NCBI GenBank assembly: GCA_020160915.1
Contig: JAIUPK010000002.1
Location: forward strand, 496,001-560,000
DNA: 64,000 nucleotides
Source of the DNA: Actinomycetota bacterium
GTDB taxonomy: Bacteria; Actinomycetota; Actinomycetes; Actinomycetales; Microbacteriaceae
Direction: 5' to 3'
Numbering within the stretch: position 1 is the first letter of the stretch; each line of letters opens with the position of its first letter. A program made the translations under genes and the position numbers. The notes beneath the pieces were generated by a model, which made no database searches, was not told the DNA's origin, and was given only the letters and a program-made list of their open reading frames with translations. Positions 22,300-36,293 of this stretch are shown piece by piece.

Positions 22300-23231
22300 C
22301 CGGGTTCGCGCCGCTGAGGGTCGGAATCGACATCGGCGGCACCAAGACCGATGCCGTGGCCATCCACGCCGATGGCCGGATCGCGCAGCAGCTGCGCCTG
22401 CCCACCGGCTTCGGCCCCGCCGCTGTGCTCGAGACCGCGGTCACCGCCGTCACACAACTGGCCGCGCTGTGCGAGACGACCATCGAGGGGTTCACGTCCA
22501 TCGGCATCGGCATCCCCGGTGCCGTCGACAACGGAACCGGTCGGGTGACTCACGCGGTCAACCTCGGACTCGACGGACTCGACCTGGGTGCTGAGCTGTC
22601 GGCGCGACTGGGCCGCCCGGTGCGCATCGAGAACGACGTCAACGCCGCGGCGATCGGCGCGTTCCACCTGCTCGAGAAGGATCCGTCGCACTCGATGGCC
22701 TACCTCAACCTCGGCACGGGACTCGCGGCGGGCCTCGTGCTCGGCGGCGAACTGTGGCGCGGATCGCGGGGAACCGCGGGCGAGATCGGGCACATCCCGG
22801 TCGATCCGAACGGTCCGGAGTGCCCGTGCGGCCAGCGCGGCTGCCTGGAGATGGTCGCGAGCGGATCGGCGATCGCCCGCCAGTGGCCCACCGACGATGC
22901 CCGACCGGCGCGTGCCCTGTTCGCGGCGGCGGCATCCGGAGACCCCCGGGCGATGGAGGTCAAGCGGCGGTTCGTCGAGAACGTGGCCGCTGCCGTGCGG
23001 GTGCTCGTGCTCACGGTGGACGTCGATAGCGTCGTCATCGGCGGCGGGCTGTCGTCGCTCGGCAGGTCGCTGCTCCACGACATCGTCGTAGTGCTCGAGG
23101 GCTGGGAGCACGACTCGCCGTTCCTTGCGTCGATCGAACTGAGCCGTCGGATGCAGCTGGTGCCCGCAGACTTCCCGGCGGCCGCCGTCGGTGCCGCCCT
23201 CGTCGGCGTCGCACCCGAACGGGTCGGCTGA
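22296..23231 (+). CDS. ROK family sugar kinase
   Basis: 311 residues with the ROK kinase pattern: ATP-binding DIGGTKTDAVAI (about 9-20), sugar-binding ENDVNAAAIGAF, LGTGLAAGLVLGGELWRG, and the zinc-binding CPCGQRGCLE near residue 180. It phosphorylates a hexose at C6; next to nagB and nagA the best guess is N-acetylglucosamine or glucosamine. It has no DNA-binding domain, unlike the ROK regulator upstream. It is linked by a 4-base overlap to the permease and by a 1-base gap to nagB. Confidence 0.88.
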   Translation: MTGFAPLRVGIDIGGTKTDAVAIHADGRIAQQLRLPTGFGPAAVLETAVTAVTQLAALCETTIEGFTSIGIGIPGAVDNGTGRVTHAVNLGLDGLDLGAELSARLGRPVRIENDVNAAAIGAFHLLEKDPSHSMAYLNLGTGLAAGLVLGGELWRGSRGTAGEIGHIPVDPNGPECPCGQRGCLEMVASGSAIARQWPTDDARPARALFAAAASGDPRAMEVKRRFVENVAAAVRVLVLTVDVDSVVIGGGLSSLGRSLLHDIVVVLEGWEHDSPFLASIELSRRMQLVPADFPAAAVGAALVGVAPERVG

Positions 23232-23232
23232 C

Positions 23233-24003
23233 GTGGCCGAAGTCGTCATCGTCGAGTCGGCCGATGCCGCGGGCGAGCTGGCCGCGGACGCCATCGAGCA
23301 CCTCGTGCGCTCCCGGCCCGACGCCGTGCTCGGGCTGGCGACCGGATCCACGCCACTCACCACTTGGCGCGCGCTCGCCGGTCGGGGTCTCGACCTGTCG
23401 CGGGTGCGGGGCTTCGCGCTCGACGAGTACGTGGGTCTGCCGGCCGGGCATCCCGAGAGCTATCGCTCGGTCATCACCCGCGAGGTCGTCGAGCCCCTCG
23501 GCCTCACGCCGGAGCGCGTGCGAGTGCCGGGCGACGACGGACCGATCGAGACGGCGGGCGAGCGCTACGAGCGGGCCATCGATGACGCCGGCGGCGTCGA
23601 CCTGCAGGTGCTCGGAATCGGTCGCACCGGGCACATCGGCTTCAACGAGCCGGGCTCGTCGTTCGCGTCGCTCACCCGGGTCAAGACGCTCACCCAGCAG
23701 ACCAGGATCGACAACGCGCGCTTCTTCGACTCGGTCGAGGATGTGCCCATGCACTGCATCACGCAGGGTCTCGGCACGATCCTTGGGGCGCGCCACCTCG
23801 TGCTCCTCGCCTTCGGCGAGGCCAAGGCTGCCGCCGTCGTTGGCGCCGTGGAGGGTGCGGTGACGTCATCGCTTCCGGGCTCGGCGATCCAGCTGCACCG
23901 GCAGGTCACCGTGATCGTGGATGAGGCCGCGGCATCCGGTCTCGCTCATGCCGACTACTACCGCTACGCGTGGGCGAACCGGCTGGAGTGGGAGCGGCTC
24001 TAG
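23233..24003 (+). CDS. nagB: Glucosamine-6-phosphate deaminase
   Basis: 256 residues from GTG at 23233, one base after the kinase stop; the longer frame would overlap the kinase gene with no gain. Conserved blocks are LGLATGSTPL, the active-site FALDEYVGL, IGRTGHIGFNEPGS and the His in MHCITQGLGTIL. It converts glucosamine-6-phosphate to fructose-6-phosphate and ammonia, linking amino sugars to glycolysis. Its stop codon overlaps that of the convergent SGNH gene at CTAG. Confidence 0.94.
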   Translation: MAEVVIVESADAAGELAADAIEHLVRSRPDAVLGLATGSTPLTTWRALAGRGLDLSRVRGFALDEYVGLPAGHPESYRSVITREVVEPLGLTPERVRVPGDDGPIETAGERYERAIDDAGGVDLQVLGIGRTGHIGFNEPGSSFASLTRVKTLTQQTRIDNARFFDSVEDVPMHCITQGLGTILGARHLVLLAFGEAKAAAVVGAVEGAVTSSLPGSAIQLHRQVTVIVDEAAASGLAHADYYRYAWANRLEWERL

Positions 24004-25127
24004 CCCTCCGACCGCCGCGAGCGGCGCGCGAGCGCCACGCCGGCCGCGAGCAGAGCCGCCGCGAGCACCCCGAGCGGCAGCAGGAGGTCGGGCCCGCCGG
24101 TATCGGCGAGCGCAGGTCGGGCGCGATCGGCCTCGATCGCGGCGATGATCGTGGAGGCGAAGAAGTCGACGCCCTCGGTGTTGGGGTGCAGTGCCCCGCG
24201 CACCAGGTAGATCCCGGGCAGCGGGGTCGGCTCGCCGTCCTGGGCGTCGGTCGTGAGGGTGATGCCGAAGATGTGCGGGTCGTCCGCGCACACCGAGTGC
24301 AGCGCCGACGCGGCCCAGGTCGGCAGGTAGGTGAACCCCTGGGTGGTGGCGGCCGCCTGGATGCGGGCGTCGAGCTCCTTCTCGATGTAGTGCAGGTAGA
24401 GCGTGTCGGTCTGCGTGTAGGGGAACGAGTTCACCGGGAAGGGCGGGTTGCCGTCGCCGATCGCCGTGGTGAAGCACCCGGGCGGTTCGGGCTGACGGAT
24501 GTTCGCGGCATCCGGTGCGATCGTCGGATACCCGATCACGTACACGGTCGCATTGGGGGCCTTCGCCGCGATCAGCGCGAACGTCTCGGCGAGGGCGGGC
24601 GCGACCGTCGAGTCGAGTAGGTCGATGAGCTGGTCGACGCCGGGCGAGGGGTTGTAGTGATCCTTGCAGTTGTCGAGCGACGGGTCGCCGGCGATGGGCC
24701 CGTTCGCCGTGAGGGCGACGCAGTAGCCCGCGATCGACGCGAAGCCGAGGTCGTTGCCGCCGATCGTCACAGTGACGATGTCGGTGGATGCCGACAGCGC
24801 GTCAGACTGCACCGGTGCCGTTCCCGAGCCGGTCACCTGCGGAGTGTCCCGGATGTTCGCGGTCACCGCTCCGGCGCACGACCGGTCGTCGAGGTCCAGA
24901 CCGAGCGCGGTTGCGACCAGGTGCGGGTAGTCGACTTCAGCCTGATAGCAGCCGGTCGCGGGCGATGTCGGACTCAGCGGCAGGAGACCGTAGCCGGCCG
25001 AGTACGAGTCGCCCAGCGCGACGTACTCGAGGCCCGCGGTGGTCGAGGAGGTCGCCGCGGCGGCCGTCGTGCTCGGGGCCAGCAGGGCAAGCCCGACGAG
25101 GATCACGGCACCGGGAATCAGTCTCAT
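24000..25127 (-). CDS. Secreted SGNH/GDSL hydrolase with LAxTG-type wall anchor
   Basis: 375 residues. Signal peptide about 1-25; catalytic block I GDSYSAG (Ser41), block III GGND, and a late block V with Asp/His. The C-terminus has LADTG (340-344), a hydrophobic helix and an Arg-rich tail (ARRSRR), the plan of a sortase-anchored protein. LAxTG is the motif known for class E sortases of high-GC Gram-positives. Such esterases remove acyl groups from lipids or polysaccharides. Sitting between nagB and nagA, it might deacylate a wall or chitin-derived substrate; that is conjecture. Confidence 0.85.
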   Translation of the reverse strand: MRLIPGAVILVGLALLAPSTTAAAATSSTTAGLEYVALGDSYSAGYGLLPLSPTSPATGCYQAEVDYPHLVATALGLDLDDRSCAGAVTANIRDTPQVTGSGTAPVQSDALSASTDIVTVTIGGNDLGFASIAGYCVALTANGPIAGDPSLDNCKDHYNPSPGVDQLIDLLDSTVAPALAETFALIAAKAPNATVYVIGYPTIAPDAANIRQPEPPGCFTTAIGDGNPPFPVNSFPYTQTDTLYLHYIEKELDARIQAAATTQGFTYLPTWAASALHSVCADDPHIFGITLTTDAQDGEPTPLPGIYLVRGALHPNTEGVDFFASTIIAAIEADRARPALADTGGPDLLLPLGVLAAALLAAGVALARRSRRSEG

Positions 25128-25168
25128 GGCTCAGAGAATAGTGGTCCGAGGTGTTGCACAATCGACCC

Positions 25169-26314
25169 TCAGGACAGTGCCTTCCCGTCAGCCCACACGT
25201 GCTGAACGCGCCATTCATGGTCGAGCAGCACGGCGTCGGCGGCGAAGCCGGGGGCGAGCAGGCCGTGCCGGTGGTCGAGGCCGAGGGCGTGCGCGGGGGT
25301 GAGGGTGAGCGCAGTCACCGCGTCGCGCGGCGAGAGGCCGGCGCGGGTGATCGCGAGCCGCAGGGCGCGGTCCTGGGTGAGGGTCGAGCCGGCGAGGGTG
25401 TGAGTTCCACGCAGCACCGCGAGACCGTCGCGCACGGTGACGGTGAGGCTGCCCAGCGCATAGTCGCCGTCGCCCGAACCGGCGGCCGCCATGGCGTCGG
25501 TGACGAGAGCCACGCGGCCCGGGGCTGCGGTGAAGGCGAGGGCTGCGACATCCGGATGCACGTGCTCGCCGTCGAGGATCAGCTCGATCGTCACCCGCTC
25601 GTCTTCGAACGCCGCGACCACCGGCCCCGGCTGGCGGTGGTGGATGCCCGGCATCGCGTTGAAGGCGTGGGTGACGAGCCGCGCGCCCCGATCGAATGCC
25701 GCCCGGGTCATCTCGAAGTCGGCCTCCGTATGACCGACCGCAACGAGGACCCCGGCCTCGACAAGCACGTCGATCGCCTCGAACGCTCCGGGCAGTTCGG
25801 GGGCGAGGGTGATCTGGCGCAGGGTGCCGCGGGCCGCACCGATGAGCCGTTCGACCTCGTAGGGCGCGGGTTCGAGCAGGTGGTCGAGGTTGTGGGCGCC
25901 GCGGCGGGCCGGCGCCAGGAACGGGCCCTCGAGGTGCGAGCCGAGCACGAGTGGGTCGACCTCGGCGAGGTCGGCGATGCCGGCGAGCGATTCGCAGAGC
26001 TCGTCGATGGGGTTGGCGACGAGCGAGATGACCGACCGGGTGGTGCCGTGGGCGCGGTGCACCGCGAGCGCCGCGGCAATGGCCGCCGGCCCATCGTCGA
26101 ACGAGTGGCCGCTGCCGCCGTGGCCGTGCAGGTCGAGGAAGCCGGGTACGAGCCAGGCGCCGGAAGCATCGACGATTTCGGTCTCGACGCGCTCGACCAC
26201 CGGCGGGGAGCCGTGACCGGTCGCGACGATCGAGTCACCCTCGCAGAGCATCCAGAAGCTGTCGACTTCGCCGTGGGCGTCGAGTTTGCGGGCCCCGTGG
26301 ATGAGAAGGCTCAT
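25169..26314 (-). CDS. nagA: N-acetylglucosamine-6-phosphate deacetylase
   Basis: 381 residues, an amidohydrolase barrel. LVPGFLDLHGHGGSGH (about 52-67) is the metal-binding region, followed by LGSHLEGPFL with the key Glu, VGHTEADF, VTHAFNAMPG and VTDAMAAAGSGDG with the catalytic Asp. It releases acetate from GlcNAc-6-P, giving the substrate of NagB encoded on the facing strand. Ten bases separate it from purU upstream on the same strand, so the two may share a transcript. Confidence 0.94.
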   Translation of the reverse strand: MSLLIHGARKLDAHGEVDSFWMLCEGDSIVATGHGSPPVVERVETEIVDASGAWLVPGFLDLHGHGGSGHSFDDGPAAIAAALAVHRAHGTTRSVISLVANPIDELCESLAGIADLAEVDPLVLGSHLEGPFLAPARRGAHNLDHLLEPAPYEVERLIGAARGTLRQITLAPELPGAFEAIDVLVEAGVLVAVGHTEADFEMTRAAFDRGARLVTHAFNAMPGIHHRQPGPVVAAFEDERVTIELILDGEHVHPDVAALAFTAAPGRVALVTDAMAAAGSGDGDYALGSLTVTVRDGLAVLRGTHTLAGSTLTQDRALRLAITRAGLSPRDAVTALTLTPAHALGLDHRHGLLAPGFAADAVLLDHEWRVQHVWADGKALS

Positions 26315-26324
26315 GGTCGCAGGC

Positions 26325-27188
26325 TCATTTGAAGATGATCGTTCTCGCGCCGTCGAGCAGCACGCGATGCTCGGCGAACCACTTGACGGCCTGGGTGAGG
26401 GTGCGGCTCTCCTCGTCCTGGCCGATGGCGACGAGTTCGGCGGGGGTGCGCGAGTGGTCGACGCGCACGACGTTCTGCTCGATGATCGGTCCCTCGTCGA
26501 GGTCGCTCGTGACGAAGTGGGCCGTGGCGCCGATCAGCTTGACGCCGCGGGCGTGGGCCTGGCGGTAGGGGTTGGCCCCCTTGAAGCCGGGCAGGAACGA
26601 GTGATGGATGTTGATGACCCGACCGCTGAGTGCTGCGCACAGCTCGGGCGAGAGGATCTGCATGTAGCGCGCGAGCACGACCAGCTCGATGGCGTGCTGC
26701 TCGACGACCTCGAGCACGCGATCCTCGAATGAGAGCTTCTGGCCTGCGCTGGTGACCGGGTGCGACTCGAAGGGCACGTCGTAGAACTCGGCGAGTCCAC
26801 CGAGGTCGGGGTGGTTGCTCATCACCAGCGGCAGGTCGACGGTGAGCTGACCGGCCCGCTGACGGTACAGCAGGTCGTTGAGGCAGTGCCCCGCCGTGGA
26901 CACGAGCACGAGCGTGCGCAGGGGGCGGCCGACGACGTCGAGTTGCCACTCCATGTCGTAGCGCTCGGTCACCGGCGCGAGGGCCGCCTCGAAGCGGTCG
27001 CGGGATGCTGCGGACTCCACCTGCAGCCGCATGAAGAAGCGGCCGGTGTCGTCGCTGGAGAACTGCTGCGACTCGGTGATGTTGCCGGATGCCTCGACGA
27101 TCGCACCGGAGATGGCGTGCACGATTCCGGGTCTGTCCTCGCACACGAGGGTGAGGATCCAGTGGGTCGTGGCGGCGGCGTCGGTCAC
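26325..27188 (-). CDS. purU: Formyltetrahydrofolate deformylase
   Basis: 287 residues: an N-terminal ACT domain (WILTLVCEDRPGIVHAISGA) followed by a formyl-transferase-fold catalytic domain with NIHHSFLPGFKGANPY (Asn and His of the active site) and GATAHFVTSDLDEGPI (the Asp). It hydrolyses 10-formyl-THF to THF and formate, balancing one-carbon pools. The ACT domain suggests allosteric control by an amino acid or methionine/glycine ratio, as in E. coli PurU. It is divergent from the NCS1 operon. Confidence 0.94.
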   Translation of the reverse strand: MTDAAATTHWILTLVCEDRPGIVHAISGAIVEASGNITESQQFSSDDTGRFFMRLQVESAASRDRFEAALAPVTERYDMEWQLDVVGRPLRTLVLVSTAGHCLNDLLYRQRAGQLTVDLPLVMSNHPDLGGLAEFYDVPFESHPVTSAGQKLSFEDRVLEVVEQHAIELVVLARYMQILSPELCAALSGRVINIHHSFLPGFKGANPYRQAHARGVKLIGATAHFVTSDLDEGPIIEQNVVRVDHSRTPAELVAIGQDEESRTLTQAVKWFAEHRVLLDGARTIIFK

Positions 27189-27204
27189 GGTTCAAGGGTA
27201 GTTG

Positions 27205-27234
27205 TTGACGCGGGCCCGACCGCGCCACTAACGT
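27205..27234 (+). promoter_or_regulatory. Promoter of the NCS1 operon
   Basis: TTGACG (27205-27210) and TAACGT (27229-27234) with an 18-base spacer, 72 bases before the permease start. Confidence 0.55.
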
Positions 27235-27242
27235 GTGCTCAG

Positions 27243-27259
27243 CAGACTGAACAGGTCTG
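27243..27259. promoter_or_regulatory. Candidate operator of the NCS1 operon
   Basis: Inverted repeat CAGAC-N7-GTCTG just downstream of the proposed -10 box, inside a direct repeat of CTGAACAGGT (two copies 12 bases apart). A plausible site for the GntR regulator encoded as the third gene of this operon; not verified. Confidence 0.45.
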
Positions 27260-27305
27260 AACAGGTGCAGGCCGTTGGCGGCCCCACGTCAGGAGGATCC
27301 TCAGA

Positions 27306-28778
27306 GTGAGTACGACCACCAAGAACGACGCGGGCACCTCGGCCCTCAGCGTCGAGACCAACGGAATCAACACCATCACCGAAGCGGAACGCAAAGGCAA
27401 GCCGCGCGACCTCTTCTGGCCCTGGGCGGCGGCTAACGTCTCCGTCTTCGGAATCGCCTACGGCTCGTACCTCCTCGGCTTCGGCGTCTCCTTCTGGCAG
27501 GCGACCGTCATCGGTCTCGTGGGCATCGTCGTGTCCTTCTTCTTCGTCGGCGTCATCGCGCTCGCCGGCAAGCGAGGCTCGGCTCCCACGCTGGTGCTCA
27601 GTCGCTCGATCTTCGGCGTCAACGGCGGTCGCGTGCCGTCGATCCTCTCGTGGGTGCTGACGGTCGGCTGGGAGACGGTGCTCGTGTCGCTGGCGACCCT
27701 CGCCACCGCGACAGTGTTCACGGCCCTCGGCTGGAACGGCGGACCGGTCACCCAGGTCGTCGCCCTCATCGTCGTGGCTGCGCTCGTCATCGCGGCCGGG
27801 GTCATGGGCTTCGACCTGATCCTCAAGCTCCAGTTCTGGATCACCATCGTCACGGTCGTGCTCACCATCGGCTACATCGTGATCACAGTTGCTCAGGGTC
27901 ACATCGACCTCGCCGCCGTCGCAGCACTGCCCGCGGGTGACGTGCCTGCCGTAATCGGCGGCTTCGTCTTCATGATGACCGGATTCGGCCTCGGCTGGGT
28001 CAACGCCGCAGCGGACTACTCGCGCTACCTGCCCCGCAACGCCAGCAGCAAGGGCGTCGTCGGGTGGACGACCTTCGGCGCCTCGGTTGCCCCGGTCATC
28101 CTGCTGATCTTCGGTCTGCTGCTGGCCGGATCGTCGGCCGAGCTGCGCGACGCTCTCGGCGCCGACCCGATCGGTGCGCTGTCGACCCTCCTACCGATCT
28201 GGTTCCTGCTGCCCTTCGCTCTCGTCGCGATCCTCGGCCTCGTCGGCGGTGCTGTGCTCGATATCTACTCCTCAGGACTCTCGCTGTTGACCGCGGGCAT
28301 CAAGGTGCCCCGTCCGGTCGCCGCAGGAATCGACGGCGTGATCATGGTGCTCGGCGCGATCTACGTGGTGTTCATCGCCCAGGACTTCTTCTTCCCGTTC
28401 CAGGGCTTCCTGATCACGCTCGGTGTGCCGATCGCGGCCTGGGCCGGCATCTTCCTGGCCGACACGATCATCCGCAAGAAGGGCTACGCCGAGAAGGAGC
28501 TCTACACCGCCACCGGTCGCTACGGCAGCTGGCGCTGGCTGCCCATCGCACTTCTGGTGATCGGAAGCGTCGTCGGCTGGGGCTTCGTGACCAACACCTA
28601 CGCCGACTGGCTGGCATGGCAGGGCTACTTCATGGATGCCATCGGCGGCAAGGAGGGCGCCTGGGCGTTCGCCAACCTCGGCGTGCTGTTCTCGCTGCTG
28701 ATCGGCTTCCTGGGCTACCTCGCCTTCGGCCGCGCCGCGGTGAAAAAGCAGGAATCCACTCCGCTCGACAACGACTAG
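27306..28778 (+). CDS. NCS1-family nucleobase/cation symporter (purine-cytosine permease type)
   Basis: 490 residues with about twelve hydrophobic helices and the NCS1 landmarks: charged N-terminus, an early FWPWAAANVSVFGIAYGSYL helix, GFDLILKLQFWI, and GLGWVNAAADYSRYLP (around helix 6), typical of cytosine and purine permeases. The start is GTG 27306 behind AGGAGG. NCS1 carriers take up cytosine, purines, allantoin, hydantoins, thiamine or nicotinamide riboside-like compounds with H+ or Na+. It is followed after 10 bases by an amidohydrolase, which suggests the imported base or its product is hydrolysed. Confidence 0.9.
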   Translation: MSTTTKNDAGTSALSVETNGINTITEAERKGKPRDLFWPWAAANVSVFGIAYGSYLLGFGVSFWQATVIGLVGIVVSFFFVGVIALAGKRGSAPTLVLSRSIFGVNGGRVPSILSWVLTVGWETVLVSLATLATATVFTALGWNGGPVTQVVALIVVAALVIAAGVMGFDLILKLQFWITIVTVVLTIGYIVITVAQGHIDLAAVAALPAGDVPAVIGGFVFMMTGFGLGWVNAAADYSRYLPRNASSKGVVGWTTFGASVAPVILLIFGLLLAGSSAELRDALGADPIGALSTLLPIWFLLPFALVAILGLVGGAVLDIYSSGLSLLTAGIKVPRPVAAGIDGVIMVLGAIYVVFIAQDFFFPFQGFLITLGVPIAAWAGIFLADTIIRKKGYAEKELYTATGRYGSWRWLPIALLVIGSVVGWGFVTNTYADWLAWQGYFMDAIGGKEGAWAFANLGVLFSLLIGFLGYLAFGRAAVKKQESTPLDND

Positions 28779-28788
28779 CAGGGCCGCC

Positions 28789-29340
28789 ATGTCAGACAAC
28801 GCCTGGCTCGTCGTCATCGACATGCAGGTCATCTTCGGTGAGCCCGGGAGTGCGTGGTGCACCCCGGGCTACCCGGAGGTCGAGAAGCAGATCGCGCGGT
28901 TGGCACCCGAGTTCGGTGACCGGGTGGTGTTCACGCGGTTCATCGCGCCGGAGCATCCGCAGGGCGCCTGGGTGCCCTACTACGAGCTCTGGGAGTTCGC
29001 GCTCGTGCCGCCGACCGATCGCCTGTACGACCTGACGCCGACGTTCCGGCAGCCGCAGCACCCGGTCGTCAGCCGCACGACCTTCGGCAAATGGGATGAC
29101 GAGATGGCGGGCATCCTCGGGCCGGATGCGACGATGGTGCTCACCGGGGTCTCCACCGACTGCTGCGTGATCTCGACCGCACTGGCCGCCGCCGATGCGG
29201 GCGTCGCCGTGCGGGTCGTCTCCGACGCCTGTGCCGGCATCAGCGAGAACGACCACCAGCGCGCGCTCGACGCGATGGCGCTGTACGCCCCGCTCATCGA
29301 GATCACGTCGGTCGAGGCCGTGCTGGAGTCGTTGCGCTGA
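28789..29340 (+). CDS. Isochorismatase-family cysteine hydrolase
   Basis: 183 residues, the length of nicotinamidase and isochorismatase-like enzymes. The catalytic triad is complete: Asp11 in VVIDMQ, Lys101 in TTFGKWDD, and Cys126 in STDCCVIS with the cis-peptide preceding it. Family members hydrolyse C-N bonds (nicotinamide, N-carbamoylsarcosine, ureidoacrylate) or isochorismate. In this operon a nitrogen heterocycle amide is more likely than isochorismate. The stop/start junction with the next gene carries a 14-base tandem duplication. Confidence 0.85.
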   Translation: MSDNAWLVVIDMQVIFGEPGSAWCTPGYPEVEKQIARLAPEFGDRVVFTRFIAPEHPQGAWVPYYELWEFALVPPTDRLYDLTPTFRQPQHPVVSRTTFGKWDDEMAGILGPDATMVLTGVSTDCCVISTALAAADAGVAVRVVSDACAGISENDHQRALDAMALYAPLIEITSVEAVLESLR

Positions 29341-29357
29341 TGGTGCTGCGCTGATGG
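29333..29357. repeat. Tandem duplication at the hydrolase/GntR junction
   Basis: TGCGCTGATGG occurs at 29333-29343 and again at 29347-29357, period 14. Each copy contains TGATGG, i.e. an overlapping stop and start. The first holds the stop of the hydrolase and the second the ATG used by the GntR gene. Confidence 0.7.
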
Positions 29358-30067
29358 TCTCGGGCCCCCGGTTGAAGCACGAGGAGATTGCGGCCGTGCT
29401 GGCGCGCGAGATCCGCGCGGGCGAACTGCCGACCGGCGACCAGTTGCCCGGCGAGACGGCGCTGGCCGAGAGGTTCTCCGTGAGTCGCAACACCGTCCGC
29501 GCTGCGTTGAGCGAGCTGGGCCGGGCCGGACTCATCTCGACCCGCTCGGGCAAGGGGTCGTATGTCACTTTCGACGGACGCCCCCTCAACGTGCGGCTGG
29601 GCTGGGCCCGCGCCCTGCAGGAGCAGGGTGTCGACGCGACAGTCACGGTGCTCGCGCTCGAGCGGATCGAGGACCCTGCCCTCGCCGCGGAGCTCGGCCT
29701 TGAGAGCCCGCACTTCCTGCGCCTCGACCGGCTGCGCACCATCGGCGCGGGTGCGGTCTCGCGGGAGTCGTCGCGCATCCCGGTCAGCGACGCCGTGCTG
29801 GAGGCGGTGACCGTCGAATCGGCGGCCGGTTCGCTGACCGCCGTCTTCCGATCTGCTGGCCTGGTGGCGGCCACCGGCGAGCAGTGGGTGGAGGTACGAC
29901 CTCTGGGCGCCGAGAACGCCGAGCTGCTCGGCCACCAGCCGCTGGACCTGTTCCTCTGGTCGCGATGCGTCACCCGTACGTCGGCGGGCGACGTGGTCGA
30001 GTGCGTCGAGAGCTTCCTCGACCCCGCGCACTTCCGGCTGCACTTCGAGTTCGACTCCGAGTCGTGA
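29354..30067 (+). CDS. GntR family transcriptional regulator (HutC type)
   Basis: 237 residues from ATG 29354. An N-terminal winged helix (about 8-70; PGETALAERFSVSRNTVRAALSELG is split across helices two and three) is followed by a UTRA-like ligand domain from about 80 on (FLRLDRLRTIGAG, then a closing FDPAHFRLHFEF-like strand). HutC-type regulators respond to small metabolites of the pathway they control. It lies inside the operon, between the hydrolase and the glycohydrolase homologue, and overlaps the latter by 4 bases (GTGA). Confidence 0.88.
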   Translation: MVSGPRLKHEEIAAVLAREIRAGELPTGDQLPGETALAERFSVSRNTVRAALSELGRAGLISTRSGKGSYVTFDGRPLNVRLGWARALQEQGVDATVTVLALERIEDPALAAELGLESPHFLRLDRLRTIGAGAVSRESSRIPVSDAVLEAVTVESAAGSLTAVFRSAGLVAATGEQWVEVRPLGAENAELLGHQPLDLFLWSRCVTRTSAGDVVECVESFLDPAHFRLHFEFDSES

Positions 30068-31065
30068 GCGAGCACGACCGCGCGCTCGCCGCGCTCACCG
30101 GACTCGCCATCGGCGACGCGCTCGGCATGCCCACGCAGCTGATGTCGCGCGAGCAGGTCGCCGCCCGCTATGGATCGATCACGACCTTCCTGCCCGCGGC
30201 CGACGACCACCCCCTCGCCGCCGGGATGCCCGCCGCCTCCATCACCGACGACACCGAACAGGCGCTCCTCACCGCCCGCCTCATCATCGAGGGGCACGGC
30301 CACGTCGAGCCCGCCACCTTCGCGCGCGAGCTCGTCGCCTGGGAGGACGGCATGCGAGCGAAGGGCTCGCTCGACCTGCTCGGGCCGTCGACCAAGCGCG
30401 CCGTCGACGCGGTGCTCGCCGGCGAGTCGCTCGAGGAGGCGGGTCGATACGGCACCACCAACGGTGCGGCCATGCGGGTCACCCCTGTGGGACTCGCGCG
30501 CAGCACCCGCGATCTGCCAGCACTTGTCGACCTCGTGGTCGAGGTCAGTCTCGTCAGCCACAACACCGGCATCGCGCTCGCCGGCGCGGCCGCGGTTGCC
30601 GCTGCCGTGAGCGCGGGCATCGACGGGGTCGACCCGATCCCCGCCGCGATCGAGGCGGCCGAACTCGCCGCCACCCGCGGGCACTGGGTGGCCGGCGGCG
30701 ACGTCGGGCGGCGCATCCTCTGGGCTCGCACCCTGGCCGACCCCACGAACGTCGAGCGCAGCCTCGACGACATCTACCGGCTCGTCGGCACGAGCCTGGC
30801 CACGCAGGAGTCAGTGCCGGCGGCGTTCGCGCTGCTCGCCCTCTTCCCGGGTGACCCGTGGGCCGCGGTCTGCGCCGCCGCCACGCTCGGCGGCGACAGC
30901 GACACCATCGGCGCCATTGCCGGAGCGATCGGCGGAGCCGTTCACGGCTCGTGGCCGACCGACGCCGTCGAGACCGTGCTCGCCGCGAACGACCTCGACC
31001 TGCTGCCGGTCGTTTACGGCCTGCTGGAGCTGCGGGCTCCTGGACCTGCGGTGATGCCGGCGTGA
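30064..31065 (+). CDS. ADP-ribosylglycohydrolase family protein
   Basis: 333 residues from GTG 30064. All metal-binding clusters of the DraG/ARH fold are present: GDALGMP (Asp18), TDDTE (Asp62, Asp63, Thr64) and GGDSDTIG (Asp278, Asp280), which hold a pair of Mg ions next to the glycosidic bond. Known family members remove ADP-ribose from proteins or split ADP-ribose-like N-glycosides. With a nucleobase permease, an amidohydrolase and a sugar kinase in the same operon, it is likelier to cleave a small nucleoside-like N-riboside than to edit proteins. The 3' end overlaps the kinase gene by 4 bases. Confidence 0.87.
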   Translation: MSEHDRALAALTGLAIGDALGMPTQLMSREQVAARYGSITTFLPAADDHPLAAGMPAASITDDTEQALLTARLIIEGHGHVEPATFARELVAWEDGMRAKGSLDLLGPSTKRAVDAVLAGESLEEAGRYGTTNGAAMRVTPVGLARSTRDLPALVDLVVEVSLVSHNTGIALAGAAAVAAAVSAGIDGVDPIPAAIEAAELAATRGHWVAGGDVGRRILWARTLADPTNVERSLDDIYRLVGTSLATQESVPAAFALLALFPGDPWAAVCAAATLGGDSDTIGAIAGAIGGAVHGSWPTDAVETVLAANDLDLLPVVYGLLELRAPGPAVMPA

Positions 31066-31961
31066 CGCTGATCAGCGTCGGCAACGTCATCGTCGATCTC
31101 ACGATCGACGTTCCCGCCCTGCCAGAGCGCGGCGGCGACGTGCTCGGCCGTGCGACGGGAACGACCCCCGGCGGCAGCTTCAACACCATGGTCGCCGCCA
31201 CCCGTCAGGGCTTGCCGACCGCCTACGGGGGAGCGCACGGCACCGGGCCATTCGGCGACAGGGTGCGTGCGGCGCTCGCCGCCGAAGGCATCGGGGTGCT
31301 TCAGCATCCGACGCCCGACACCGACACGGGATACGACATCGCACTGACCGAGAGCGACGGCGAGCGCACCTTCGTGACGGTGTTCGGCGCCGAGGCGAGC
31401 CTGACGGCCGACGCGCTGGCGGGCATCCGCTTGGCCGAGGGCGACCTGGTGCACGTGTCCGGGTACGGGCTGCTGGAGTCCACCAACGGGCGGGCGATCG
31501 CGGGATGGCTGGGGTCGGTTGGCTCGGACCACGTGGTGCTCGTCGATCCGGGGCCGCTGGTCGGCGACATCCACCCCGCCGTCTGGGCCGTCGCGCAGGC
31601 GCGGGCCACCTGGGTCAGCTGCAACCTGCGCGAGGCGCGACTGATGACAGGTGAATCCGAGCCCGCGGCGGCGGCCGAAGCGCTCGCGGCCCGCGGCGAT
31701 GTCATCGTGCGCCTCGGTGCCGACGGCTGCCTGGTCGGCGTGCGCGGGGCCCTTACGCACGTGCCCGGCTTCCCTGTGACTGCCATCGACACCAACGGTG
31801 CCGGGGATGCCCACGCCGGCGCCTTCCTCGCCGCCCTCGCCAGGGGTGCCGATCCGCTCGCCGCCGCCCGGGCAGCCAACGCCTGCGCGGCCATCGCCGT
31901 CACCCGCCGCGGCCCGGCCACCGCACCCACGCTCGGGGAACTCGCGCAGCTTCTGGATTAG
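31062..31961 (+). CDS. PfkB family carbohydrate kinase
   Basis: 299 residues from GTG 31062. It opens LISVGNVIVDLTIDVP, has the Gly-rich substrate motif PGGSFNTMVAATRQG, and the ATP-binding and catalytic DTNGAGDAHAGAF with base Asp249. PfkB kinases act on ribose, pseudouridine, adenosine, fructose and related sugars. Placed after an N-glycosidase homologue, ribose or a riboside is the best guess. This is the last gene of the five-gene operon; a gap of 75 bases follows. Confidence 0.87.
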   Translation: MTLISVGNVIVDLTIDVPALPERGGDVLGRATGTTPGGSFNTMVAATRQGLPTAYGGAHGTGPFGDRVRAALAAEGIGVLQHPTPDTDTGYDIALTESDGERTFVTVFGAEASLTADALAGIRLAEGDLVHVSGYGLLESTNGRAIAGWLGSVGSDHVVLVDPGPLVGDIHPAVWAVAQARATWVSCNLREARLMTGESEPAAAAEALAARGDVIVRLGADGCLVGVRGALTHVPGFPVTAIDTNGAGDAHAGAFLAALARGADPLAAARAANACAAIAVTRRGPATAPTLGELAQLLD

Positions 31962-32036
31962 GCTGGTAAGCGTTGGCGCCGACCCGCGTCATCCCGCAGG
32001 CGGCGAACGCCAACCCCCACCGAACGGATCGTCCTC

Positions 32037-33230
32037 ATGGACGCGAAGAACACCACTTTCCCCTGGGTCGGAATCTTCACCCTCGCAGCCCTCATCTTCA
32101 CCTCGGTGACGATCGAGTTCCTACCGACCGGCCTGCTGCCGGAGATCGCCACGGAGCTCGGCGTCTCGCAGTCCCAGGTCGGCATCCTCGTGTCGGTGTT
32201 CGCGGGCACGGTCGTGCTGAGCGCAGCACCGTTGGCGACGCTGACTCGCCGGTTCCCGCGCAAGACCCTCGTGATCGTCGTGCTGCTCGTGTTCGTGGTC
32301 TCCAGCGTGCTGACCGGTCTCGCGCCCAACTACCCGCTGCTCGTGGCCGCGCGGGTGCTCGGCGGACTCGCTCACGGCCTGTTCTGGGCGGTCGTCGGGG
32401 CGTACTCGGCGCATCTGGTGCCGAAGAAGTTCCTCGGCCGGGCCGTGGCGATCACCGCGGGCGGCGGAACCGCTGCGTTCGTGCTCGGCGTTCCCCTGGG
32501 CACGGCGATCGGTCACGCGTTCGGGTGGCGCTCATCCTTTCTCGTCATGGCGTGCGTGATTCTCGTGCTCGTCGTCGTCGCCGCGCGCATCCTGCCGCCC
32601 GTGCAGCACCTCGAGCCGCTGGTGACCGGCGAGATCCCCCTGCCGTTGCGCAAGGACAAGACGATCCCCGGCATCATCCTGATCTGCCTGACCGTCGTGC
32701 TGCTGATGACGGCGCACAACCTCTTCTACACGTACATCGCCCCGTTCCTCCTGGGGCCGGTCGGGGTGCCATCGGCGTCGGTTGCTCTCGTGCTGTTCCT
32801 CTACGGCAGCGCGGCGGTCATCGGCCTCGTGTTCGCCGGCGCCCTCAGCGACCGGTTCCCCCGGGCGGCCCTTGCCGGCTCGCTCCTGGTGATCGCGCTG
32901 TCGGTGCTCGTGATCGGCCTGTTCGCGGGCACGCCGTGGATCGTCTTCCCCGCCCTCGTCATCTGGAGCATCGGCTTCGGCATGGCGCCACCGGTGCTTC
33001 AGGCGCGCATGCTGCACACTGCGTCGCGGCGCATGCGCGACATCGCGTCGGCCTACCTCACGACATCGTTCAACATCGGCATCGGTGTCGGCGCGCTCAT
33101 CGGCGCCGTGATCCTGGATGCCGTGGGGGTGGGCGTGCTGCCCTACGTCACCGCCGGTGTGACCCTTCTCGCGGTCGTCGTGTTCCTCGCGGGAGACGTA
33201 CGGCTGCGGCGCCGGGCGGCAGCGAAGTAG
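32037..33230 (+). CDS. MFS transporter (arabinose efflux/AraJ-like)
   Basis: 397 residues with twelve predicted helices in two sixes. The first half has FTSVTIEFLPTGLLPEIA and GILVSVFAGTVV, features of the AraJ/CynX-like drug and sugar efflux group, and the conserved loop TRRFPRKTLV; the second has GALSDRFPRAALAG. It is a proton-driven exporter, substrate unknown. It is convergent with the hexosaminidase; only two bases separate their stops. A possible 6-bp inverted repeat TTGGCG...CGCCAA lies in its upstream gap. Confidence 0.87.
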   Translation: MDAKNTTFPWVGIFTLAALIFTSVTIEFLPTGLLPEIATELGVSQSQVGILVSVFAGTVVLSAAPLATLTRRFPRKTLVIVVLLVFVVSSVLTGLAPNYPLLVAARVLGGLAHGLFWAVVGAYSAHLVPKKFLGRAVAITAGGGTAAFVLGVPLGTAIGHAFGWRSSFLVMACVILVLVVVAARILPPVQHLEPLVTGEIPLPLRKDKTIPGIILICLTVVLLMTAHNLFYTYIAPFLLGPVGVPSASVALVLFLYGSAAVIGLVFAGALSDRFPRAALAGSLLVIALSVLVIGLFAGTPWIVFPALVIWSIGFGMAPPVLQARMLHTASRRMRDIASAYLTTSFNIGIGVGALIGAVILDAVGVGVLPYVTAGVTLLAVVVFLAGDVRLRRRAAAK

Positions 33231-33232
33231 CG

Positions 33233-34657
33233 CTACCCGTCGAGCGGCCGGTGACGGATGCCCGCAGCATCCCACACCGCTTCGATCGAGCCGAGGCGGC
33301 CCGCGAAGTCGGCGAACGACTGCCGCGCGCCGCGAGGGGACCACGCGATCTCGGCCACCGCCGCCATCCGCGGGAACGCGAGGTACTCGGCGTCACCGAT
33401 CGAGCGCACCGTCTCGGTCCACAGCGGGGCCTCGACGCCGAGCAGTTGCTCCTCGCCGATGCCGGGCACGATGTCGGCCGGGTCCCAGTCATAGGCCTGC
33501 TCGAGGCTCGTCGGACCGTTCGCCCAGACCAGCCCCAGCGCTGCGTCGGGTTCGTACGCAATGTCGAGGTAGGCGACATCGGCGGGCGACATGATCACGC
33601 GTCCGCCCTGCTCGACGAAGCTCAGGGTGTGTTCGGCGGCACCCTCCTGCGGGGTGGTGAAACTCCAGTACTGGCCGATGGTTCCTGCTGGGAGGTCGCG
33701 GCTGCGGCCCATCTCGTGCCAGCCGATCAGGGTGCGGCCGTGCGCCGCGGCAATTGCTGTCGCCCTGGCGATGAAGGTAAGGAAGTCCTCGTCGGTCGTC
33801 GACAGTGACTCGTCCCCGCCGAGGTGCAGATAGGGGCCGGGCGTCAGGCCGACGACCTCGCGCACGACATCCTCGATGAAGTCGTAGGTGCTCTCGCTGC
33901 GGATCGCCAGGCTCGAGAACCCCACCTCGATGCCCTCGTACGGCTCGGCAGGCGAGTCGCCGAGCTCGGGGTAGGCGACGATCGCCGCATTGGTGTGCCC
34001 CGGCATGTCGATCTCGGGCACGATCGTGATGAACCGGGATGCCGCGTACGCGACGATCTCGCGGTACTCGTCCTGCGTGTAGAAGAGCGGCGCGTCGAAG
34101 CCGCCGCTGCCACCGCCGCTGCCACGCCCGCCACCCCCGCCGCCGACCTGCGTCGTCGCACCCTTCGCGGTGAGCTCGGGACGACTGAGGATCTCCAGCC
34201 GCCAACCCTGGTCGTCAGTGAGGTGCAGGTGCAGGTGGTTGAACTTCAGCAGCGCGATGTCGTCGATATACCGCTTCACGTCGGCGACCCCGAAGAAGTG
34301 GCGGGCCACGTCGAGCATCGCGCCCCGGTAGGAGAACCGCGGGTGATCCTCGATGCTCACGCACGGCACCGGCCCGTTGGCGGCCAGCTGGCGCAGCGTC
34401 TGCACTCCCGCGAAGAGGCCGGCGGTGGCATCCGCTGCGAGCCGGATGCCCGCCGGCGCGACCTCGAGGGTGTACCCACCGGGTGCCGCACCGCTGCCGA
34501 GCTCGAGCCGCACGTCGCCGCCGGACTCGACGACCGCAAGGCCGAGCGTCTCGCTCAGGTACTCGGCGAGCGGCCCGCTCACGGTCGCGCCGGCGAGGGT
34601 GAATGTGCCGTCGCCGGGTACGACGCTCACGGGGGCGGGGACGATTGCGATGCTCAT
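33233..34657 (-). CDS. Beta-N-acetylhexosaminidase, GH20
   Basis: 474 residues from the ATG at 34657, which has AGGAGT upstream; ten more in-frame codons exist but look non-coding. The N-terminal GH20b domain (about 1-110) precedes a barrel that starts RGAMLDVARHFFG. The catalytic Asp-Glu pair is Asp282-Glu283 in HLGGDES. A Gly/Ser run (about 172-187) interrupts the region after LTAKGATTQ. There is no signal peptide, so the enzyme seems cytoplasmic and would split imported chitobiose-like disaccharides, matching the nag locus 7 kb away. An inverted repeat just upstream may be a ROK operator. Confidence 0.92.
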   Translation of the reverse strand: MSIAIVPAPVSVVPGDGTFTLAGATVSGPLAEYLSETLGLAVVESGGDVRLELGSGAAPGGYTLEVAPAGIRLAADATAGLFAGVQTLRQLAANGPVPCVSIEDHPRFSYRGAMLDVARHFFGVADVKRYIDDIALLKFNHLHLHLTDDQGWRLEILSRPELTAKGATTQVGGGGGGRGSGGGSGGFDAPLFYTQDEYREIVAYAASRFITIVPEIDMPGHTNAAIVAYPELGDSPAEPYEGIEVGFSSLAIRSESTYDFIEDVVREVVGLTPGPYLHLGGDESLSTTDEDFLTFIARATAIAAAHGRTLIGWHEMGRSRDLPAGTIGQYWSFTTPQEGAAEHTLSFVEQGGRVIMSPADVAYLDIAYEPDAALGLVWANGPTSLEQAYDWDPADIVPGIGEEQLLGVEAPLWTETVRSIGDAEYLAFPRMAAVAEIAWSPRGARQSFADFAGRLGSIEAVWDAAGIRHRPLDG

Positions 34658-34694
34658 GTCACTCCTGCGGGACGGTCCGCCGGGCACACAGCCC

Positions 34695-34721
34695 GAGTTA
34701 GTCAGGACTCCTAACTAACTC
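34695..34721. promoter_or_regulatory. Inverted repeat, candidate ROK operator for the hexosaminidase
   Basis: GAGTTAGT-N11-ACTAACTC, 38 bases upstream of the GH20 start. It shares the TTAGT...ACTAA core with the repeat at the ROK regulator gene (17850), suggesting joint control of amino-sugar use. The spacer lengths differ (N15 there), so the link is tentative. Confidence 0.5.
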
Positions 34722-34748
34722 GCCCTATTCTGCCAGACCCCCGCCCCG

Positions 34749-34846
34749 TGTTCATAACTCCTGCAATTCCTCGCCGGGTTGCAAGGTAGCCCCGGGAATC
34801 CGGGCCAGCCGCCGACGGAGACGGAATTCTGCAGGAGTTATGAACA
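34749..34846. repeat. Long inverted repeat with perfect 17-bp ends
   Basis: TGTTCATAACTCCTGCA at 34749-34765 and its exact complement at 34830-34846, with a 64-base interior that includes further self-complementary bits (AATTCC near the left end, GGAATT near the right). No open frame lies inside. It might be a small mobile repeat, a terminator pair, or a structured RNA between the divergent GH20 and glyA transcripts. Confidence 0.7.
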
Positions 34847-34863
34847 TCGCGGCGGCTAGACTG

Positions 34864-34966
34864 AACCCGTCGCAACTGGCGCTGAGATGGGCAACCATCG
34901 GGGAGCGACAGCCCGCTGGTTGGTCCCGCGGGCACACGATTGGGCCGTACGCCTGGGCTCACCGGA
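34864..34966 (+). ncRNA. ZTP (pfl motif) riboswitch upstream of glyA
   Basis: The 5' half reads GTCGCAACTGGCG (34869-34881), then a TGGGCAACCATCGGGGAGCGA block (split at 34888-34907), matching the conserved ACUGGCG and ACCA-C-GGGGAGC parts of the pfl motif. After a variable linker the 3' half gives CGCCTGGGC (34950-34958), the CCGCCUGGGCA element that pairs back as a pseudoknot. The RNA senses ZTP/ZMP, a signal of short 10-formyl-THF supply, and turns on folate and purine genes. It ends about 40 bases before glyA, itself a classic target. Confidence 0.88.
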
Positions 34967-35006
34967 TACCGTTAGTCATATCCGTTCGAGTGTCGAGGAG
35001 CTGCCC

Positions 35007-36293
35007 GTGTCATCCGTCTTCAATTCCCCGTTGGCCGAAGTCGATCCCGAGATCGCCGCCGTTCTGGAGCAGGAGCTCGACCGCCAGCGCGGCACGCTCG
35101 AGATGATCGCGAGCGAGAACTTCGTTCCCCGCGCGGTGCTCGAGGCGCAGGGCTCCGTGCTCACCAACAAGTACGCCGAGGGCTACCCGGGCCGCCGCTA
35201 CTACGGGGGATGCGAGTTCGTCGACGTCGCCGAGACCCTCGCGATCAGCCGCGCCAAGAGCCTGTTCGGCGCCGCCTACGCGAACGTGCAGCCGCACTCC
35301 GGTGCCTCGGCCAACGCCGCGGTGCTCTCCGCGATCGCGACCCCCGGCGATCGCATCCTGGGCCTCGCCCTCGACCAGGGCGGTCACCTCACCCACGGCA
35401 TGCACCTCAATTTCTCGGGCAAGCTCTACGAGGCCCACGCCTACGGCGTCGACACCACGACCCACCTCATCGACATGGATGCCGTGCGCGAGACGGCTCT
35501 CGAGGTGAAGCCGCACGTGCTGATCGCCGGCTGGAGCGCCTACCCCCGCCAGCTCGACTTCGCCGCGTTCCGCGCGATCGCCGATGAGGTCGGCGCCAAA
35601 CTGTGGGTCGACATGGCGCACTTCGCTGGCCTCGTCGCCGCCGGCCTGCACCCGAGCCCGGTTCCCTTCGCGGATGTCACCAGCTCCACAGTGCACAAGA
35701 CGATCGGTGGTCCGCGCTCGGGCTTCATCCTCACCAACGACCTCGAGACCCAGAAGAAGCTCAACTCGAACGTCTTCCCCGGACAGCAGGGCGGACCGCT
35801 CATGCACGTGATCGCCGCCAAGGCGACCGCGTTCAAGCTCGCCGCCGAGCCCGAGTTCAAGGAACGCCAGGAGCGCACGGTGCGCGGCGCGAAGATCCTC
35901 GCCGAGCGGCTCACTGCTGCCGACGCGAAGTCCGCGGGCATCGACGTGCTCACCGGCGGCACTGACGTACACCTGGTGCTCGTCGACCTGCGCAACTCCG
36001 CGATCCACGGGCAGGACGCCGAAGACATCCTGCACTCGGTGGGCATCACCGTGAACCGCAACTCGGTGCCCAACGACCCGCGCCCGCCGATGACCCCGTC
36101 GGGTGTGCGCATCGGCACCCCGGCGCTCGCCACCCGCGGCTTCGGCGACACCGAATTCACGGAAGTCGCCGACATCATCGCCAACGCCCTGATGCCCAGC
36201 CCGGATGTCGAGGCCCTCCGCGCCCGCGTACTCAAGCTGACCGACGGCTACCCGCTGTACCAGGGTCTGACGTCGCCGGGTTCGTGGGCGTAG
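35007..36293 (+). CDS. glyA: Serine hydroxymethyltransferase
   Basis: 428 residues from GTG 35007 with GAGGAG 7 bases before it. An in-frame GTG-initiated extension from 34887 would run through the riboswitch and is rejected. Typical blocks are [47 protein letters not shown], and the PLP lysine in [12 protein letters not shown] (Lys231). It converts serine and THF to glycine and 5,10-methylene-THF, the main one-carbon entry point. It is followed by folD, so the pair makes 10-formyl-THF for PurN and PurH. Confidence 0.97.

Follow-up and report, generated by a model that had tools for sequence, protein, structure and literature searches.

The yegTUV operon of Escherichia coli and its regulator gene yegW form the closest described system to the locus considered here: a carrier, an enzyme of the ADP-ribosylglycohydrolase (ARH) fold, a PfkB-family kinase and a GntR/UTRA-type regulator are grouped in both. 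YegW (GgaR) represses yegTUV, and ADP-glucose, its proposed effector, is thought to inactivate it; the functions of yegT, yegU and yegV are termed unknown in the accessible part of that report (PMC10819704). The yegU gene occurs in 5372 of 5426 complete E. coli genomes, and YegT matches the NCBIfam nucleoside permease model at 655 bits, above the cut-off. A second point of reference is psuT-psuK-psuG of E. coli, which likewise groups a carrier, a PfkB-family kinase and a glycosidase, but there the glycosidase gene is psuG rather than an ARH gene. Our subject is a five-gene operon at 27306-31961, on the + strand throughout, of a 64,000-nucleotide stretch (the window) from a Microbacteriaceae genome of 2.93 Mb in 8 contigs (assembly GCA_020160915.1, contig JAIUPK010000002.1, positions 496,001 to 560,000):

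27306..28778, + strand: NCS1 permease of the NCS1a type; GTG start, AGGAGG at 27291-27296; PF02133 (Transp_cyt_pur) at 124 bits, cut-off 23.5
28789..29340, + strand: isochorismatase-fold cysteine hydrolase (ISO); PF00857 (Isochorismatase) at 93.5 bits, above cut-off, and alignments
29354..30067, + strand: GntR/UTRA regulator; PF00392 (GntR) at 67 bits and PF07702 (UTRA) at 43 bits, both above cut-off
30064..31065, + strand: ARH-fold glycohydrolase; PF03747 (ADP_ribosyl_GH) at 200.6 bits, above cut-off
31062..31961, + strand: PfkB kinase; PF00294 at 160 bits, above cut-off

The five genes and their single orientation, claimed in the original prediction, are confirmed; the permease also matches NCBIfam TIGR00800 at 74 bits, below that model's cut-off. 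The motifs named earlier are likewise in place: the Asp-Lys-Cys triad of ISO (D11-K101-C126, from alignments), the ARH metal clusters (GDALG, TDDT at 61-64, D278/D280/T281) and the GAGD of the kinase (PfkB 246-249). Three junctions had been described as overlapping or coupled; GntR-ARH and ARH-PfkB each overlap by 4 bp, but the permease-ISO and ISO-GntR junctions are close gaps of 10 and 13 nt. A fused permease-hydrolase, suggested by long open frames, was not adopted, the fetched loci showing the two in different frames.

The window operon differs from yegTUV-yegW in that the latter has a NupG-type carrier, no ISO, Glu rather than Gln at the ARH flap, and a divergent regulator gene. GntR-ARH-NCS1-PfkB loci of Pseudomonas and Paraburkholderia share with the window the NCS1, PfkB and GntR genes and the flap Gln (the Pseudomonas ARH is 51-55% identical), but their carrier is of the NCS1b type, their gene order is different and ISO is found in none of 74, repeats and close kin included. 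The earlier statement that no described pathway has exactly this set therefore needs qualifying: yegTUV-yegW is a set of the same kind, although without ISO. Operons of this kind are known, though uncharacterised, and the window carries a new variant. No description of such an ARH-PfkB riboside pathway was found in listings of open-licence papers.

We tentatively favour the reading that this GntR-controlled operon serves the uptake and cleavage of an N-riboside, for which the riboside of nicotinamide or of nicotinic acid is the likeliest candidate. The more general idea, of predicted riboside uptake, cleavage and phosphorylation, is well supported by the comparisons below. Import, N-ribosyl cleavage, sugar phosphorylation and a link to nicotinamide or nicotinate had all been proposed beforehand; these elements gain from comparison, but the proposed order of steps, a plain nicotinamidase and an indivisible set of five genes do not. 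In the mechanism that we envisage, repression by GntR would be lifted when its UTRA domain binds a ligand. NCS1a would import the riboside, and ISO would take the amide group off it or off its base. ARH, with its binuclear metal, would cut the ribose-nitrogen bond, and PfkB would phosphorylate the freed ribose, or the riboside ahead of cleavage, with the sugar entering as ribose 5-phosphate. The pyridine product would go to NAD salvage or be excreted in the window host, and would feed nicotinate breakdown in Pantoea and Rhizobium.

The window ARH is the only PF03747 match in the host genome. It shares a fold family and metal-ligand motifs with DraG, ARH1 and ARH3, and the alignment retains the binuclear-metal ligands T61, D62, D63, D278, D280 and T281 (TDD, DxDT). 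In contrast, DraG Asp97, which lies near the first metal (residue roles as given in the accessible part of PMC7050489, where a need for both ribose hydroxyls is also described), is replaced by Pro108. In a reduced alignment from which rows of 240 residues or fewer were dropped, the NCS1a/ISO and NCS1b groups together make up 41 rows, and all 41 have Pro there. The flap Glu is Gln in the same 41 rows and in 3 of 3 PotD-type rows; the YegU/Lactobacillus-type rows, 11 of 11, keep Glu, as do 11 of 17 clostridial-group rows. Furthermore, the Glu of the DraG ExxA motif aligns, by eye, with Arg. These motifs speak against a DraG-type enzyme, and DraG-type de-ADP-ribosylation of proteins was rejected as the leading explanation on these grounds and on the carrier and kinase genes alongside.

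Relatives of this ARH adjoin NCS1 carriers or a NupG-type nucleoside permease of the MFS; ARH-PfkB with a PotD-type ABC transporter recurs in several relatives, and one locus (L123) has ARH with a BMP-type ABC. Carriers of nucleoside or vitamin type at these loci speak for a substrate that is a small riboside taken up from outside. No carrier adjoins the family ARH-PfkB pairs at L129-L134. The comparison offers the yegU family a named substrate class that is cheap to test, along with a predicted operator. It also suggests that ARH enzymes, whose usual annotation is as erasers of ADP-ribosylation, may have a small-molecule role.

Two further arrangements were seen. In three Bacillota loci (L157, L158, L162) ARH stands beside GntR and a full ECF module made up of S component, ATPase and CbiQ-type T, with PfkB in L157. 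Elsewhere ARH-PfkB accompanies a DhnA-type aldolase-like gene and a zinc dehydrogenase-like gene, the latter named by eye (L171:409-7836, L172:5688-9505, L174:6540-11601); perhaps these serve another sugar route.

Nicotinate genes near relatives of ARH and ISO

In Pantoea, genes like nicX, nicC, nicD, nicE and nicF and an MFS carrier adjoin a permease-ARH-PfkB-GntR group. Among the nicD matches listed, nicD lies 5.1-5.6 kb from the ARH gene, a relative of yegU, in 9 of 15 Pantoea plasmids (8 from P. dispersa, plus At-9b). Two Lactiplantibacillus plantarum plasmids carry a NUDIX gene, pncB and a PncA-like gene, followed by ARH, NCS1 and PfkB. Here pncB scores 683 bits, above its cut-off; the PncA-like product has the metal motif and scores below cut-off (51 bits); and the best match of the NUDIX protein is an ADP-ribose-responsive repressor model (nrtR-like) at 49 bits, also below cut-off. 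No convincing shared regulatory repeat was found in the Lactiplantibacillus plasmid, where the repeat at ARH sits on the start codon.

Relatives of ISO have similar neighbours. In Rhizobium, 12 of 13 compared places with an ISO relative have nicD among the matches listed, 10 of them at 15.5 kb and 2 at 59-64 kb. The figure of 10 of 12 carries a selection bias, because the 13, taken from 30 ISO rows (of 239 records, set against 40 of 173 for nicD), were picked mostly because the same record stood among the nicD matches. One Rhizobium plasmid that was opened, L212, holds nicX, nicF, nicE, nicD, nicC and nicA/B-like genes, glycosidases, a PotD-type ABC and an ISO relative. Its nicC, D, E, F and X are named from 43-77% identity to the Pantoea set and from the record's annotation, and its nicB from Mo-binding and cytochrome c domains; no NCBIfam model named these nic genes. 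The ISO relative is 31% identical to the window ISO, and both have, by eye, a stretch like RF..P..W..YY..W. The L212 ABC belongs to the same subfamily as the ABC adjoining ARH-PfkB in other alphaproteobacteria: its binding protein is 42-46% identical to counterparts in Mesorhizobium, Rhizobium TH2 and Paracoccus, and its other three subunits, compared with Rhizobium TH2 only, are 50-57% identical.

In L042, from a Bacillota metagenome-assembled genome, a 922-residue gene overlaps ISO and ISO overlaps ARH; no NCS1 or PfkB was recognised there. Over 921 aa, the 922-residue product and the one encoded beside nicB in L212 share 41% identity, and both large proteins match GH106 below the cut-off. 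In Paracoccaceae La6, an ISO relative lies near nicA/B-like genes. Taken jointly, these links point to pyridine glycosides, ribosides above all, as candidate substrates; none alone is proof. As a side observation, L212:10978-23598 places GH106-like, GH37/MGH1-like and GH3 genes inside the nic region beside ABC-ISO, and these glycosidase-like genes perhaps serve plant glycosides of nicotinate.

The original prediction had connected the hydrolase with nicotinamidase and with deamidation of the base. With PncA, ISO shares the isochorismatase fold and the D-K-C triad; it differs in lacking the DxH...H metal motif, in place of which stands TRFIAP..., within a conserved RF..P..W..YY..W stretch. The host genome has four PF00857 matches, and a separate gene scores 101 bits to E. 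coli PncA and keeps DxH...H. A plain nicotinamidase was rejected because ISO has no nicotinamidase metal site and another, PncA-like gene exists. If it acted on an N-ribosylated pyridine, ISO would need no metal to grip the ring nitrogen, because that nitrogen carries the ribose. A more specific proposal, which we consider unlikely though worth stating, is a second, ARH-based route for vitamin B3 ribosides, in which ISO would act as a metal-free amidase on the N-ribosylated pyridine, NCS1a would carry nicotinamide riboside and NCS1b the acid form, and ARH and PfkB would form a nucleosidase-kinase pair. On this view E. coli yegTUV would follow that route with a different carrier, and the ARH fold would gain a catabolic role on small molecules.

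Several observations weigh against a nicotinamide or nicotinic acid riboside. ISO is no canonical nicotinamidase. The nicotinate links are restricted to few lineages, and within these they are patchy: nicD was not found among the matches listed for 6 of the 15 ARH-bearing Pantoea plasmids, a third L. plantarum plasmid that was opened has no pnc genes (1 of 3), and pncA and ARH are spaced by about 300 bp. Six alphaproteobacterial ISO loci were opened; nic-type genes are present in L119 and L212, and none was seen in L120, L121, L181 and L182. The surroundings of ARH in the Pseudomonas loci gave no recognisable nic or pnc gene, bar weak or generic matches. The occurrence of NCS1a-ISO without ARH in 18 genomes indicates a separate use for that pair. 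Natural nicotinamide riboside, moreover, has a beta linkage. ARH1 and ARH3, on the other hand, prefer alpha linkages, according to the accessible part of PMC7050489.

Order of steps and choice of substrate

The earlier account had ribose freed and then phosphorylated. In the pseudouridine pathway of PsuK and PsuG, phosphorylation precedes glycosidic cleavage, and a variant of our preferred reading would have the same order: PfkB would phosphorylate the riboside and ARH would cleave the 5'-phosphate. We regard this as possible, if somewhat doubtful. Loci in Enterococcus raffinosus and Listeria (L148:3137-6978 and L180:3141-6984) consist of a PRD regulator, a beta-glucoside-type phosphotransferase system (PTS) and ARH, with no PfkB annotated within the stretch opened; these loci are a hint that phosphorylation may come first, with the PTS carrying it out, and the order first proposed is not supported as it stands. 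These PTS-linked ARHs are, however, distant on the tree, and their substrate may differ. Characterised ARHs also bind ADP-ribosyl groups, which bear a 5'-phosphate (PMC7050489, accessible part).

The kinase itself can be read either way. Ribose is bound in E. coli RbsK by Asn14, Asp16, Lys43 and Asn46; the window PfkB keeps Asp16 and Asn46 of these but not Asn14 or Lys43, which would favour phosphorylation of the riboside. Against this, PsuK retains the Asn, which weakens the residue comparison, and the best NCBIfam match of the window PfkB is ribokinase, albeit at 109.4 bits against a cut-off of 299.65. The motif SGY is common to four aligned family PfkB members and absent from RbsK and PsuK. 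The comparison with RbsK, PsuK and the four family members did not separate a ribokinase from a riboside kinase.

The operon might instead salvage some other nucleoside (a purine, a pyrimidine or a modified one), the nicotinate neighbours being coincidental. The carrier types, which are generally nucleoside- or nucleobase-like, would suit this as well, as would the confinement of the nicotinate links to few lineages. We nevertheless find it doubtful, since the links recur in Pantoea, Lactiplantibacillus and Rhizobium, for ARH and ISO alike, and have an ABC transporter and a GH106-like protein in common.

Two separable modules

ARH beside PfkB recurs widely. Among the best 80 of 557 relatives retained from a search of a genome collection, it is seen in Microbacteriaceae, Streptomyces, Kutzneria, Micromonospora and Pseudomonas; many of these 80 are Pseudomonas with GntR, ARH, NCS1b and PfkB, and those with ISO are mainly Microbacteriaceae, plus loci from Propionibacteriaceae, Streptomyces and Kutzneria. 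The ARH-PfkB pair also occurs in Paraburkholderia, rhizobia, Paracoccus, Plesiomonas, Pantoea, E. coli and Lactiplantibacillus. In a phylum-wide sample, 10 of 396 genomes (window included) pass E<=1e-30 in the homologue search, and among 229 genomes from the class of one of our sampled genomes (G590) a match at E<=1e-20 is found in that genome only.

Within the family we drew 199 genomes, taking ARH at E<=1e-60 and ISO at no less than 190 bits. ARH is present in 30 (window included) and ISO in 41; 23 have both, 18 at one place and 5 (G055, G065, G087, G125, G150) at separate places, 7 have ARH without such an ISO, 18 have ISO without ARH and 151 have neither. NCS1b adjoins ARH in 5 of the 7 ARH-only genomes, and the other 2 show no recognised carrier. 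The three other drawn genomes of the host genus have neither gene. A check of the neighbourhood, as the original prediction had suggested, thus upholds the wide recurrence of ARH-PfkB but not the five genes as a unit; loss of the unit in relatives had been named there as grounds for refutation, and in part this is what was found. One unbreakable five-gene pathway was rejected, NCS1a-ISO and ARH-PfkB being separable.

The fetched loci resolve the two parts. Among 167 ARH loci (three window copies, L001, L002 and L144, removed), which are not independent genomes, as some places were fetched twice with longer flanks and many are close kin, NCS1a is found in 28. ISO accompanies it in 27, and in the one exception, L122, a different isochorismatase-fold gene stands tail to tail. 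The 82 ARH loci with NCS1b, c or d, again counting repeats and close kin, have no ISO. An ARH tree of 87 rows, built with a quick method, makes sisters of Kutzneria, which has NCS1a and ISO, and Micromonospora, which has NCS1b and no ISO; support in the SH-like approximate likelihood-ratio test (SH-aLRT) is 99%, and a single clade of NCS1a rows is rejected by the approximately unbiased test (p-AU 1.2e-5). Joint change of NCS1a and ISO on the tree amounts to only 2 independent pairs and so cannot reach significance. Outside ARH operons, 23 of 29 ISO loci carry NCS1a at no less than 500 bits, a distant NCS1 is present in L205 and L206, and none was recognised in L196, L201, L207 and L208. Because ISO loci carry NCS1a without ARH, we treat NCS1a-ISO as a module of its own and GntR-ARH-PfkB as another.

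It could then be argued that two unrelated modules share one promoter, NCS1a-ISO handling a non-riboside amide or ureide as a nitrogen source and ARH-PfkB a riboside that enters otherwise. The 23 of 29 loci just described would fit, as would ISO relatives paired with the distant NCS1 carriers, with an amino-acid ABC (L119) and with a PotD-type ABC (L182). We judge this distinctly unlikely: ARH and ISO co-occur more often than expected (ISO in 23 of 30 ARH genomes vs 18 of 169 others; Fisher odds ratio 27.6, p 2.6e-13, uncorrected for kinship), also at separate loci, and in L042 they overlap although neither NCS1 nor PfkB was recognised. Finally, that ARH strips ADP-ribose from protein, or acts on ADP-ribose or ADP-glucose, would accord with its family name and fold and with the ADP-glucose effector thought to inactivate GgaR, the repressor of yegTUV (PMC10819704, accessible part), but is very improbable in view of the replacements at Asp97, the flap and ExxA, the adjoining carrier and kinase, and the fact that no ADP-ribosyltransferase was recognised among the five genes.

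Candidate operator, promoter-like element and flanking genes

Comparison of the sequences ahead of the permease brought out a direct repeat, and a promoter-like element precedes it:

27205..27234, + strand: promoter-like TTGACG - 18 nt - TAACGT, by eye, ahead of TGAACAGGTCTGAACAGGT
27248..27266, + strand: candidate GntR operator, 10-bp direct repeat TGAACAGGTCTGAACAGGT

With up to 3 mismatches allowed, the repeat matches nowhere else in the window (0.01 expected). A degenerate form, at up to 2 mismatches, has this repeat as its sole match in the genome, and a backwards control likewise gave 1 match. Among fetched NCS1a loci, 12 have a recognised GntR, and the element precedes the permease in 10 of them; the sequence of the two misses (L007, L039) breaks off within the permease gene or at its start. 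Of 40 NCS1a loci that lack a recognised GntR, some of which also have no upstream sequence, 0 show the element. Loci with GntR and NCS1b have a match at 2 mismatches in 4 of 74. We read the element as a candidate operator of the window GntR. In L188:6589-9599 (genome G139), one of the 10, the candidate operator, NCS1a, ISO and GntR are kept and ARH-PfkB is absent; this genome belongs to a genus group (g77) that includes two genomes with the full operon. The promoter-like element is weak, because a consensus promoter scan of 27150-32040 gave no promoter-like site; a similar element, TTGAC(A/G) ... TAxxxT, precedes the permease in several relatives.

The operon is flanked upstream by purU (26325-27188, opposite strand) and downstream by an MFS-like gene (32037-33230), both named by eye. 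Look-alikes of nagB, nagA, purU, hexosaminidase and glyA, also by eye, occupy 23191-27188 and 33233-36293. The site is syntenic with or without ARH, because purU- and glyA-like neighbours recur at NCS1a-ISO loci (L183, L190, L191, L202).

By eye, the regions that precede yegT-type genes in E. coli, Pantoea and Vibrio (L118:6740-6800, L149:6630-6680, L152:6530-6560) show GGTATT as direct repeats with a spacing of about 10-12 bp. Their sequence differs from that of the window element but the architecture is alike, and they are perhaps a candidate GgaR/YegW site.

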